From Bacteroidota bacterium (GTDB lineage: Bacteria; Bacteroidota; Bacteroidia; Bacteroidales; JABHKC01), in the NCBI GenBank assembly GCA_018692315.1, contig JABHKC010000076.1, positions 1 through 48,335 of the forward strand: DNA of 48,335 nucleotides, in the 5' to 3' direction. Every line of letters starts with the position of its first letter. The stretch's first letter is position 1. A program made the position numbers and the translations under genes. Below are positions 44,140 to 48,335 of the stretch, piece by piece. The notes beneath the pieces were generated by a model. That model saw nothing but the letters and a program-made list of their open reading frames with translations. It was not told the DNA's origin and did no database searches.

Positions 44140-44586
44140 TTATTCTGCAACTACCTTAAATTCAATTTCTACTTTTACTTCTTTGTGAAGCTTGATTGTT
44201 GCAGTATAAGCACCAATTTCTTTTACAATATCGCCTTCTATACTGATATTTTTCTTGTCAACCTTAACTCCTTTCTTAGCAATAGCTTCAGCAAGTTGAA
44301 TATTTCCAACAGAACCGAAAATTTTCCCGGTGCTACTTGCTTTAGCAGAGATCTTTAGCTTTTTGTTTTCAAGCTGTGCAGCCAATGCAATTGCATCATT
44401 CTTAAGTTTTTCTTCTTTATGCGCTTTTTGACGTATATTCTCTTCGTGCATTTTCTTTACAGAAGCAGTAGCTAAAATGGCATATCCTTTCGGAATTAGA
44501 AAATTTCTTCCATAACCACTTTTTACATTAACTAAATCATTTTCATGACCTAGATTTTCCATATCTCTTTTTAATATAATCTCCAT
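44140..44586 (-). CDS. rplI: Large ribosomal subunit protein bL9
   Basis: 148 residues, the usual length. The N-terminal domain is diagnostic (MEIILKRDMENLGHENDLVN, VKSGYGRNFLIPKGYAILAT), followed by the connecting helix and the C-terminal domain (STGKIFGSVGNIQLAEAIAK). Binds 23S rRNA near the L1 stalk. Last gene of the three-gene ribosomal operon, 16 bp after rpsR, ending at an intrinsic terminator. Confidence 0.97.
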   Translation of the reverse strand: MEIILKRDMENLGHENDLVNVKSGYGRNFLIPKGYAILATASVKKMHEENIRQKAHKEEKLKNDAIALAAQLENKKLKISAKASSTGKIFGSVGNIQLAEAIAKKGVKVDKKNISIEGDIVKEIGAYTATIKLHKEVKVEIEFKVVAE

Positions 44587-44602
44587 TTTTTACCTCCAAA
44601 TT

Positions 44603-44872
44603 TTATTTCATTAAATCTGTTACATATGGAAGCAATGCCAAATGTCTGGCTCTTTTTATTGCTTGGCCAACTTTTCTTTGATATTTTAAAGAAGTCCCTG
44701 TTAGTCTTCGTGGAAGAATTTTTCCTTGTTCGTTCAAGAATTTTTTAAGAAACTCAGGATCTTTATAATCAATATATCTGATTTTATTTTTTAAAAATCT
44801 ACAATATTTTTTCTTAACTACCTCTACCGATGGGGGTGTTAAATAACGAAATTCTGATTGATTTTGTGACAT
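44603..44872 (-). CDS. rpsR: Small ribosomal subunit protein bS18
   Basis: 89 residues. [40 protein letters not shown] and [19 protein letters not shown] are the standard bS18 blocks. It binds bS6 on the 30S platform; the bS6 gene lies 3 bp upstream. Confidence 0.97.
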
Positions 44873-44875
44873 CTT

Positions 44876-45235
44876 TTAATCCTCCTTTTTTTCTTCGGTT
44901 GCTTCTTTTCTATTTTTTCTTCTCTTAATACTGTATGCAACAGCAAACTTATCCATTTTGAAAGTTAAGAACCTAATAATCATCTCATCTCTTCGATAGC
45001 TGGTTTCTAATTTTTCAATTACTTCTCCTTCGGCTTTAAATTCTAATAGTGAATAAAAACCTGAAGATTTTTTCTGAATTGGATAAGCCAATTTTTTTAG
45101 TCCCCAGTCTTCCTGATGGACAATTTCGGCTCCATTTTCTTTTAAAAAGCCTACATACTTTTGTACCGCTTCCTTTACCTGAGTGTCAGATAAAACGGGA
45201 GTCAAAATGAAAACGGTTTCGTACTGATTTACCAT
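44876..45235 (-). CDS. rpsF: Small ribosomal subunit protein bS6
   Basis: 119 residues. [40 protein letters not shown] and [19 protein letters not shown] are typical of bS6; the C-terminal tail is Lys/Glu-rich. First gene of the operon. No ssb or priB gene lies between it and rpsR, as usual in Bacteroidota. Confidence 0.97.
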
Positions 45236-45687: not shown

Positions 45688-46164
45688 TTACTCCTTCACA
45701 ATTTTCCAAGATTTTTCTTTGCCATATATTTCTACACAAAGAAAATATGCACCGGCTTTTTGCCCACTTAGGTTTATTTGCAAAACATTTGAACTTTTTG
45801 CTCCGGAAAGTATTTCTCTGCCTAATCGATCAAAAACTTTGTAAGTAACAGTACCAAGATTTTCCTCACCGGAGATTTGCACAACTACCTCTCCTTTTGT
45901 AGGATTAGGATAAACCACCAAATTGAAACTGCCGAGTTTATCGTGTAGTTTTTGTTCTTCAGTAGTTTCTTCTTCCTCAAGGATTTCCTCATCTACAAAA
46001 CTTGTATCTTGCATTGTAGCTTTGCTTGGTGGAGAAAGTGTTATAAACCTATCAGTTCTATTTCCCACATCGTCGTAAACGAAAGTAAAATCCTGAGAAA
46101 TAGCTGGGATACTGATTGAGAGGATTATTAATAATAGTTTAAATTTTGTTTTCATCTTTTTCAT
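45688..46164 (-). CDS. Small secreted protein with YD-like segment and T9SS type A sorting domain
   Basis: 158 residues: signal peptide (FKLLLIILSISIPAISQ), a short DFTFVYDDVGNRTDRFITLS segment that resembles an Rhs YD repeat, an acidic linker (EEILEEEETTEEQ), and a C-terminal T9SS type A domain (FNLVVYPNPTKGEVVVQISG, VFDRLGREILSG, GAYFLCVEIYGKEKSWKIVK). The sorting domain directs passage through the outer membrane by type IX secretion. It follows the Rhs/lipoprotein pair on the same strand after about 175 bp, so it may be linked to it. Confidence 0.8.
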   Translation of the reverse strand: MKKMKTKFKLLLIILSISIPAISQDFTFVYDDVGNRTDRFITLSPPSKATMQDTSFVDEEILEEEETTEEQKLHDKLGSFNLVVYPNPTKGEVVVQISGEENLGTVTYKVFDRLGREILSGAKSSNVLQINLSGQKAGAYFLCVEIYGKEKSWKIVKE

Positions 46165-46339
46165 ATTTTCAATATTTATTTATATAGCTCCTATTCAACA
46201 TATTATGTCTAATAGCAAATATTAACAACTAATCTTATGTTAGAATAAACCACAAATTGCAAACTTTCTACAGTTGAGAGAAACTGCCAACAACTAATAG
46301 CAAAGTTCGGAAACTTCGCTTATCCAGAGATTCTTTCAG

Positions 46340-46885
46340 TTATTTAACAAAATTATTCGTACTGTCTGGTTTTGGGCTGAACTGTTTAAACCGGTATGTT
46401 AAGTTTACTGAGTAAGTATTTCCTGTTCCATTATTCATTTTTTTATTGATAATGAATGTAGAGTCATTTAATATCTCCCCATAATTACTAAAAGTTGTTG
46501 TCCTGGCTTCCCAAATTTCAAATTCAATATCAGGATACCTAATTTGGAACACCCCAATATGTTGGGGTGTGGACTTTAAGTCAGAAATATACTCTTCGTT
46601 AAGCAAAATCTCATTCTCAATATAGATTAGTGTATCCTCCTGGCTATTAAGATGAGTACCAGTATGAATACAAAACCCATCTCTGTAAAATACGGCTATA
46701 TCAACATAACTATCATAATCGTCTGATGCTGCAGCGTAAATTGAATATTCATCCGAATAATAGTAGCCATCAATTCTCAACTCAACTCCACTATAAGGAG
46801 TTTTAGACAGAGTTAGGTCAAATAGCTTTTTACTGCAACCTACAAATAGTATTATAACTAATAATAAATAAATTCTTTTTACCAT
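46340..46885 (-). CDS. Lipoprotein, candidate immunity protein to the Rhs toxin
   Basis: 181 residues with a lipoprotein signal (KRIYLLLVIILFVGC; lipobox Cys at residue 17). The mature part is beta-rich (VELRIDGYYYSDEYSIYAAA, VNLTYRFKQF) with no family I recognise. Its ATG overlaps the stop of the Rhs gene (ATGGTAA, 7 bp shared), so translation is coupled, the usual arrangement for a polymorphic toxin and its immunity gene. The immunity role rests only on this position and on membrane anchoring. Confidence 0.6.
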   Translation of the reverse strand: MVKRIYLLLVIILFVGCSKKLFDLTLSKTPYSGVELRIDGYYYSDEYSIYAAASDDYDSYVDIAVFYRDGFCIHTGTHLNSQEDTLIYIENEILLNEEYISDLKSTPQHIGVFQIRYPDIEFEIWEARTTTFSNYGEILNDSTFIINKKMNNGTGNTYSVNLTYRFKQFSPKPDSTNNFVK

Positions 46886-48335
46886 AATGTATAAGGATTT
46901 GATGTATAATAACCTCCATAAAATCGATCCGCAATGTTTAGTACTTTAAAGTGGGAATAATCGAAAATATCATGGAATCCATTTTGAACAGGTCCTCTAA
47001 TATTTTTTTCACTATTATATCCTACTCTAAAATTATTGTATCCTCCATATACAGCTCCCAATCTATATTTGTTGGCTCCAGGTCCAATAAAAGTACCATT
47101 TCTAGATACCCCACTAGGCTGTCCAGTAAAAAGAAGCAAGCCCGCGTTGGCTCCTTTTAATTTTCCTCCTGTAATATCAATACTCAAAGCAGCAGTTCTG
47201 AATTTATCTCGATCAGATGTAGCCCCATTAAAGTCCCATAATCCCGGAACCGGAGCCCATGTATCATTTTCATATGTTAGCTTCCATTTACCACCACCGG
47301 CATAGACTTGTCCACTTAGCTGGGAAGTCTCTCCGCTTAAGAAATAGGTACTGCCTATTCCTCCTTGAATTGTAAGGTTTTTCCAAAAATTACGGTTAGA
47401 GTTCTTAAAAGGATTGTCCTTATATCCAAAACCATATCCAAGCCTACCTTCAAAACCACTTTCTCCAGTACCCGGAGCACTAGCGTAATATGTTAAACCA
47501 AGATTCACTCCTGTATTGAAACCATTGCCTAAATTACGAACAAGCGTTGAGTTGACACCCAAACCGATTCCATCAGTACCCATGGAAAAATGAGGTGTAA
47601 TACCAAATTCAAAAGCACTATTACCTATCTGCTCTGCTGGTAAAATTTCACTAAAAGCGGCATTCATATGATAAGTCATCATTACTCCACCGACAACCTG
47701 TAATATACTACCGACAGTACCCCACCCTTGTTCAATTCTACCCATACTTGCATAATCACTCATTACCTTTCCGCCAGACCAAAGTATCATGCCTGCCGCC
47801 ATTACAAAAAAAGGATTCTCCCCATTAGGATCGGTATAGATAAGTGGATTATTGTGTGCATAAGAATACCTATTATAATTCTGTGAGTTCCCTGCCATTT
47901 GCACATAATTATCAGGGCTTAACATTCGGCCAAGAACAGGATCGTAGAGGCGGCCGTTCAAATTAATTAAGCCAAAATCGCTTAAATGTTCGTGGCCGGT
48001 ATAGCCTCTGTTAAATGCTTGCAGCGGTGTAGTATAGTATAAAAACCAGTTGGTAGCGTCTCTTTGTCTTCCCCAGGCATCGTAGCTGTAGGTTGCTTCT
48101 ATCTGCCCGCTTTCATTGCTTATGGTTTGGATAGAGCCAAGGTGGTCGGTGTGGATATATTGTAATTTGTCGGTTTGCCCGGTTTCTTTTGTAAAAACTG
48201 CAAACAAACCGCTTGGGGCGGAAATGTAATGGAATTGTTTTTCGTTGCAATTTTCCACGTTTTCTAATATTTCATTTTTCAAAAACTTGCTAAAGATAAT
48301 GTTTTTGTTTGGAAATTGGAAATTAGAAATTAGAA
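46879..48335 (-). CDS. Rhs-repeat protein with C-terminal type-23-like polymorphic toxin domain (5' part outside window)
   Basis: The frame is open to the window edge; the first listed start would be a TTG at 48282, so the gene is probably partial. It contains the last YD/Rhs repeats (QYIHTDHLGSIQTISNESGQ, ATYSYDAWGRQRDATNW) and the Rhs-associated core (GYTGHEHLSDFGLINLNGRL, YDPVLGRMLSPDNYVQ, YNRYSYAHNNPLIYTDPNGE). After the core, about 310 variable residues begin with a hydrophobic stretch and continue as Gly/Tyr-rich beta segments (GNGFNTGVNLGLTYYASAPG, FEGRLGYGFGYKDNPF, NAGLLLFTGQPSGVSRNG), which resembles polymorphic toxin type 23. The lipoprotein gene overlapping its end is the likely immunity gene. 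Confidence 0.75.
   Translation of the reverse strand, partial: LISNFQFPNKNIIFSKFLKNEILENVENCNEKQFHYISAPSGLFAVFTKETGQTDKLQYIHTDHLGSIQTISNESGQIEATYSYDAWGRQRDATNWFLYYTTPLQAFNRGYTGHEHLSDFGLINLNGRLYDPVLGRMLSPDNYVQMAGNSQNYNRYSYAHNNPLIYTDPNGENPFFVMAAGMILWSGGKVMSDYASMGRIEQGWGTVGSILQVVGGVMMTYHMNAAFSEILPAEQIGNSAFEFGITPHFSMGTDGIGLGVNSTLVRNLGNGFNTGVNLGLTYYASAPGTGESGFEGRLGYGFGYKDNPFKNSNRNFWKNLTIQGGIGSTYFLSGETSQLSGQVYAGGGKWKLTYENDTWAPVPGLWDFNGATSDRDKFRTAALSIDITGGKLKGANAGLLLFTGQPSGVSRNGTFIGPGANKYRLGAVYGGYNNFRVGYNSEKNIRGPVQNGFHDIFDYSHFKVLNIADRFYGGYYTSNPYTLW

Follow-up and report, generated by a model that had tools for sequence, protein, structure and literature searches.

Among the closest described relatives of the locus treated here, a putative Rhs toxin module linked to the type IX secretion system (T9SS) on contig JABHKC010000076.1 of a Bacteroidota bacterium, are those of two accounts. 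In Apibacter, SpvB/TcdB-type Rhs genes adjoin genes for T9SS type A sorting domains, and an association with the T9SS has been proposed (PMC8125069). The second account concerns the TANFOR toxins, with which our system shares its occurrence in Bacteroidetes, Sec signals, polymorphic tips, neighbourhoods rich in sorting-domain genes and a proposed export by the T9SS (PMC7073777). At the T9SS pore, the C-terminal domain (CTD) of a substrate binds PorV and SprA (PMC10994853). Since this signal is C-terminal and the toxin is located at the same end, the export of Rhs proteins in Bacteroidota poses an open problem. The present locus resembles the Apibacter case in that large SpvB-bearing Rhs proteins (two partners were scanned here) stand beside type A sorting-domain genes, but the accessible part of that account names no YD motif, no dedicated small family and no sorting domain acting in trans (PMC8125069). 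The TANFOR toxins differ as well: in the part of the report seen, their named neighbours are SprB-repeat proteins with a CTD, and neither an Rhs shell nor a minimal YD companion is mentioned (PMC7073777).

The window, i.e., the whole stretch of DNA analysed, is a complete contig of 48,335 b (C76 of source genome G000, which comprises about 5 Mb in 248 contigs and is the sole representative of its family in the comparison set). At the contig end, the minus strand carries a gene for an Rhs core with an Ntox23 toxin tip (46879..48335), then a lipoprotein gene (46340..46885) and finally a small gene (45688..46164), the product of which we term the companion. An earlier note on this DNA had remarked that the toxin and lipoprotein genes overlap by 7 bp and that the small protein unites a YD-like segment with a T9SS domain. 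Both remarks were confirmed: the shared bases are 46879-46885, and the 158-aa companion bears FTFVYDDVGNRTDR immediately behind an apparent signal peptide and passes the cut-offs of PF18962 Por_Secre_tail (44.6 bits, cut-off 27) and TIGR04183 (41.2 bits, cut-off 23). Its type A sorting domain spans residues 84-158 (45691..45915) and follows an acidic linker, while the alignment of members places the YD motif FVYDDVGNRTDR (46048..46083) at the predicted mature N-terminus. In the 35 aligned members, including the two of the own genome, the signal peptide is followed by the YD motif, which opens the mature protein, and a variable linker leads from there to the sorting domain. Arg36 is conserved in 34 and Arg39 in 32 of the 35; the YD and GN columns of the alignment were partly a selection criterion for membership. 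The sorting domain ends WKIIKE-like, and the penultimate lysine (Lys157 in the window companion) is conserved in 34 members. CTDs have been described as possessing, close to their end, a lysine that hardly varies and matters for function (PMC10994853). The ratio of nonsynonymous to synonymous substitution rates (dN/dS) amounted to 0.19 between the window companion and its paralogue on contig C68 and to 0.10-0.28 across six pairs including this one, with some dS values near saturation. Judged by these sequences, the small gene is under purifying selection and represents a conserved partner rather than a decayed remnant. Longer motif-bearing variants comprise 567 aa (L135), 524 aa (L192) and 291 aa (L081) and differ in the rest of the protein. 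At L148, a 537-aa upstream protein ends in the YD motif plus CTD and thus represents a fused form.

The companion recurs together with Rhs genes. When 295 genomes of the order were searched, with at most 12 candidates scored in each, matches were obtained in at least 31, the own genome included; 30 of these 31 carry the YD kind (own genome counted), and G048 has only large sorting-domain proteins. All 37 listed loci outside the own genome were fetched. An open reading frame (ORF) of at most 310 aa with the YD motif was present in 34; of the other three, L100 and L108 encode large sorting-domain proteins and L109 lacks the motif. Using an Rhs-body profile built from 26 large Rhs proteins of the companion and comparison loci, we detected an Rhs-body gene in the same-strand run of 28 of the 34 YD companions. 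The companion stands directly 5' of the Rhs gene in 17 cases, with gaps of -22 to 208 bp; four times the Rhs gene lies downstream with one gene in between, and in the remaining seven it lies upstream with one or two genes between, an arrangement like that in the window. Of these seven, L107 has a further Rhs gene downstream, and the Rhs body of L085 is a 230-aa fragment. Four companions without an Rhs match are truncated by contig ends (L082, L083, L089, L102). As a control, 18 other sorting-domain loci of the own genome were examined over at most 1.5 kb, and none has an Rhs match. The co-occurrence of the small protein with Rhs/type-23 toxins that had been envisaged earlier holds for Rhs bodies generally, but not for type 23 specifically.

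In the reverse test, among the matches listed, 12 of 18 Rhs places with a frame of at least 1900 aa have a YD-CTD companion (L084, L086, L087, L096, L098, L101, L107, L131, L133, L135 with its 567-aa variant, L136 and L138); seven of these 12 places were already in the companion-search set and five were new. L134 is cut by the contig end on its 5' side, and L137 is also cut on one side. Nine shorter Rhs genes yielded one companion (L147) and the fused form of L148. In named genomes, five of seven Rhs genes of at least 1900 aa have a companion, namely those of Dysgonomonas mossii (L197), Heminiphilus faecis (L201), a Bacteroidia metagenome-assembled genome (MAG; L204), a Prevotella MAG (L209) and Dyadobacter beijingensis DSM 21582 (L192), the last as the 524-aa variant, while Dyadobacter sp. 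MSC1_007 (L199) and a Balneolaceae MAG (L202) have none. Some records of the various searches are identical (L138 = L201, L159 = L197, L167 = L195, L177 = L188, L153 = L202).

All 30 Rhs proteins of at least 1900 aa whose start is visible, a set that also contains comparators lacking a companion, begin with an N-terminal hydrophobic stretch (the tests for this stretch and for the lipobox are simple scripts). A sorting domain was found by profile (E 0.01) in none of the 30, with the C-terminus visible in 27. The two partner Rhs proteins that were scanned contain SpvB, FG-GAP and RHS repeats, and PAAR was absent among their Pfam matches (E ≤ 0.01). We take this domain order to be that of the B and C parts of Tc toxins; unlike the Tc B/C cocoons, the present proteins belong to a T9SS context that includes a companion and a probable immunity lipoprotein. 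SprA (TIGR04189) was present in all 32 genomes searched, G000 included, and VipB (PF05943), a sheath protein of the type VI secretion system (T6SS), in none of them, with E. coli as positive control and no Bacteroidota control. These 32 genomes are 29 of the 31 from the companion search plus G005, G007 and G025; G048 and G220 were left out, of which G220 does carry a companion-Rhs pair (L099). Delivery by the T6SS was set aside for this set of genomes on the strength of the VipB result, as controlled by E. coli only. Elsewhere, at L157 (5970-7789), two genes that resemble Hcp/TssD by eye precede an Ntox23 gene, and the same domain may also use the T6SS.

Our preferred account, offered tentatively and with slightly less than even confidence, is that the three genes form the 3' terminus of an Rhs toxin module linked to the T9SS and consisting of an envelope-acting tip, its cognate lipoprotein and a dedicated export companion. 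The Rhs proteins found beside companions elsewhere begin with a Sec-like hydrophobic stretch and have no T9SS sorting domain, as the toxin occupies their C-terminus. The companion possesses both a Sec signal and a sorting domain. We envisage that the mature companion binds the YD-repeat shell through the single YD hairpin at its N-terminus and guides the filled shell out by way of the T9SS pore; the sorting domain would then be cleaved and the toxin either freed or tethered to surface lipopolysaccharide. The tip would hit the envelope of rival cells, and the lipoprotein immunity would accordingly be placed in the envelope, the site of toxin action. Docking, export in trans, target and chemistry of the module are what we infer here. 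As changing tips could not carry a fused sorting domain, one conserved tag supplied in trans would serve many shells. We further suggest, with reserve, that the module may be a two-part T9SS substrate, in which a minimal YD-CTD adaptor gives its sorting domain in trans by plugging into the Rhs shell through strand addition, combined with a new class of envelope-lipid-hydrolase tip (Ntox23) and a lipoprotein immunity family. Neither the YD-CTD companion family nor the Ntox23 lipoprotein immunity family was met in searches of the open-access literature (bioRxiv and most subscription papers lie outside this scope). A conserved sorting-domain partner in the same operon would offer a concrete, testable answer to the question of Rhs export.

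The simplest rival to an adaptor is that the small protein is a separate T9SS cargo, such as a surface anchor, an adhesin or a signal protein, which shares operon and regulation with the Rhs gene without exporting its product. We consider this unlikely, though to be taken seriously. A small CTD protein of Porphyromonas gingivalis, PorA, acts in signalling (PMC7712824), and companions stand on either side (5' or 3') of the Rhs gene. Moreover, two of the 34 (L081, L103) have full context and no Rhs body, and no Rhs core is among the matches listed for their genomes (G037, G031). Companion and Rhs also co-diverge weakly: a mirror-tree test over 28 pairs gave a Spearman coefficient of 0.27, reached by 17 of 2000 permutations, and one pair is 89% identical in the companion and only 34% in Rhs. 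On the other side, the mature companion consists, besides CTD and variable linker, of about one YD motif, too small for an independent adhesin, and 28 of the 34 companions are located with Rhs.

These observations on context and co-divergence count against the adaptor, as do several others. The YD motif of the companion has no Pfam RHS repeat match at E ≤ 1, and a GNR-type YD motif, sought as a fixed shell site resembling that of the companion, occurs in just four of the 30 large Rhs proteins. Among the 18 large Rhs places, three of the 3000-aa class (L132, L140, L141) have a non-YD sorting-domain gene directly 5', and two (L137, L139) are without a sorting-domain neighbour. The window toxin itself may be a displaced (orphan) tip that starts near TTG 48282, not the end of a full-length Rhs protein, because the frame upstream of its core (upstream of NEKQFHYISAP) shows no likeness to the corresponding place on contig C20 of the same genome, where the core sits in a short core/tip gene after an intergenic stretch. 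Such an orphan tip would have no shell to export.

The readable frame of the window toxin (46879-48333, 484 aa, first start codon TTG at 48282) is cut off by the end of the contig, which is also that of the window, and no 5' part of the gene was found. It passes TIGR03696 Rhs_assc_core (55.6 bits, cut-off 32.5) at residues 84-171 (47821..48084). Directly after the core follows Ntox23 (PF15528, 78.3 bits, cut-off 26.2) at residues 258-455 (46969..47562). No match to the TANFOR domain (TIGR02542) was detected in this readable part, the N-terminus being beyond the contig. By profile, the window tip is a member of the published Ntox23 family and has its motif of ND, DxxR and H (PMC3482391). It differs from the published description, as far as accessible, in that the domain is linked here to a lipoprotein family and to free-standing relatives, whereas it was predicted there to be an RNase without immunity protein (PMC3482391). 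The toxin gene closes with Leu-Trp-stop (TTA TGG TAA), which contains the start of the lipoprotein gene (ATG GTA A) and thereby the whole 7-bp overlap. A gap of -7 also separates three more pairs of Ntox23 and next gene (L166, L177, L178).

The lipoprotein comprises 181 aa with the lipobox cysteine at position 17. Pfam and NCBIfam scans gave no family match above cut-off; over its whole length, however, it matches a profile of 28 distinct Ntox23-adjacent lipoproteins from other genomes (E 6.7e-23), which supports the pairing of a toxin with a cognate immunity lipoprotein proposed in the earlier note. By the lipobox script, a lipoprotein stands directly after 30 of 45 Ntox23 tips with a readable next gene. 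The background is 40 of 247 ORFs of 90-260 aa and eight of 24 genes after other Rhs tails (Fisher tests, p 2e-11 and 0.011, respectively, with two repeat records left in). For this count, L174, which is of the free-standing type, was dropped from 46, and L160, L176 and L181, which are probably free-standing, were kept among the 45. Between the window and C68 lipoproteins, dN/dS is 0.39. We conclude that the lipoprotein is probably the cognate immunity protein of the Ntox23 tip, and predict that it protects. Two findings speak against this assignment. First, the remaining 15 of the 45 next genes fail the lipobox script, those of L155, L157, L171, L191 and L196 being scored as misses though lipoprotein-like by eye. 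Second, homologues of the window lipoprotein occur in eight other genomes, where one of nine surrounding regions has an Ntox23 stretch and none an Rhs core; a wide occurrence without the toxin, named beforehand as an argument against the pair, is thus seen in part. Orphan immunity genes often stand without their toxin.

Ntox23 is present in 28 of 393 genomes of the order and in six of 395 of the phylum (own genome included). A genome scan with the window tip alone returned 35 pattern matches and no relative; a closer alignment led to 22 loci. Two kinds can be distinguished, namely tips and free-standing proteins of about 300 aa, which read as secreted and beta-rich with an aromatic last residue. 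One of nine free-standing genes is followed by a lipobox gene. The residues Q, D, D, G, Q, N and H are invariant in all 26 aligned members, and in the window domain the residues of Q, ND, DxxRT and QNxxH are invariant in two alignments (A2, A4). In LpxR, a lipid A 3'-O-deacylase, the calcium ligands are N9, D10 and T34, and H122 has been proposed to act as the base (PMC6260217). N124, D125, T148 and H222 of the window domain fit this N-D...T...H active-site pattern, with an N-to-T spacing of 24 against 25 in LpxR (PMC6260217). We regard Ntox23 as probably not an RNase; it would rather be outer-membrane-protein-like and beta-rich, with a residue pattern like that of a lipid hydrolase such as LpxR. 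As an observation in its own right, the free-standing proteins of L163, L164, L165, L169, L170, L172, L173 and L187 resemble resident outer-membrane proteins, and the toxin domain could derive from such proteins. In a Treponema MAG (L208, 8779-9663), an Ntox23 protein of 294 aa begins in a signal-like manner and has no lipoprotein gene beside it.

The comparison with LpxR has its weak points. Window Ntox23 gave no match to LpxR (PF09982) at E ≤ 5, and the best match, that of one relative (L164; 13.9 bits), is below the cut-off of 26; in this match, residues 131-167 align to profile positions 20-56, i.e., the ND...T stretch. Unlike in LpxR, where the motif lies near the N-terminus of the profile, it is found mid-protein in Ntox23, the fold of which is only predicted. 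A single-sequence fold of the window tip was discarded (predicted local distance difference test, pLDDT, 29.5). The model from 26 sequences (A4) is all-beta and poor as well (pLDDT 54.7). Searching with this model, Foldseek found nothing at E ≤ 0.001, the best outer-membrane barrel being OMPLA (E 0.25), and a second aligner returned the barrels of an autotransporter (NalP), CymA, OmpG and OMPLA with a top Z of 9.8, barely above the level that the aligner calls common. LpxR was not among the matches listed in the structure comparison of this low-confidence model, and sequence searches of the PDB with alignments A4 and A2 gave no matches at E ≤ 10. We take the barrel matches as no more than suggestive.

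If these matches are taken at face value, Ntox23 could be a beta-barrel that kills as a membrane pore, with no enzymatic activity; the all-beta model and its best structural matches (NalP, CymA and OmpG, Z up to 9.8) point this way, but the polar residues invariant in 26 of 26 members look catalytic, and a Z of 9.8 from a low-confidence model is little above commonplace, so that we rate a pore as rather improbable. An RNase, with the adjacent lipoprotein being coincidental or having another task, appears about as improbable. Zhang et al. listed Ntox23 in 2012 among the predicted metal-independent RNases with the motif ND, DxxR, H and, in the part accessible, gave no immunity protein (PMC3482391), and the RNase label persists in 2026 (PMC13288982). 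A lipoprotein would, however, be an odd antidote to a cytoplasmic RNase, the lipoproteins found after 30 of 45 tips form one family, and the free-standing relatives look secreted and beta-rich with terminal aromatic residues. We judge an envelope toxin with lipoprotein immunity to be likelier than an RNase. Through the lipoprotein link, Ntox23, so far a predicted RNase for which no immunity was known, would become a probable envelope toxin whose immunity family can be recognised; this matters for the interpretation of metagenomic toxin surveys.

Of the two origins formerly considered for the small protein, an adaptor appears to fit better, and we reject the decayed end of another Rhs gene as highly improbable: the YD motif is present and the region has broken tips (C68, C96), but the protein has its own signal peptide and sorting domain, a 35-member architecture of conserved length and dN/dS of 0.10-0.28, and none of the 30 large Rhs proteins (27 C-termini visible) contains a sorting domain.

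The module recurs in the own genome, with further broken or edge-cut copies on C68, C96 and C236 (L120, L122 and L121, respectively). C68 holds a broken Ntox23 remnant together with a lipoprotein (68% identical to that of the window) and a small gene (71%), C96 the end of a tip and the start of a lipoprotein at the contig edge, and C236 stops within a small gene (87%). The Rhs core on C20 is 85% identical in protein to the window core, but has a different tail. Beyond the small gene of the window lie genes that look like rpsF-rpsR-rplI (44140-45235). In G228 (L079), a companion-Rhs pair immediately follows the same ribosomal cluster on its 3' flank, opposite to the side occupied in the window. 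The non-YD sorting-domain genes directly 5' of the approximately 3000-aa Rhs genes at L132, L140 and L141 encode 516-586 aa and may represent a second companion class. By a pattern script, 14 of the 34 companion regions (L074, L075, L077, L078, L080, L088, L090, L091, L093, L101, L103, L104, L106 and L110) also contain a gene whose product terminates in a conserved coiled coil (KIEELTLYIIEQ-like or similar) and may be a fibre or adhesin partner; six of these products were scanned, of which one matches Peptidase_S74 and five match nothing.

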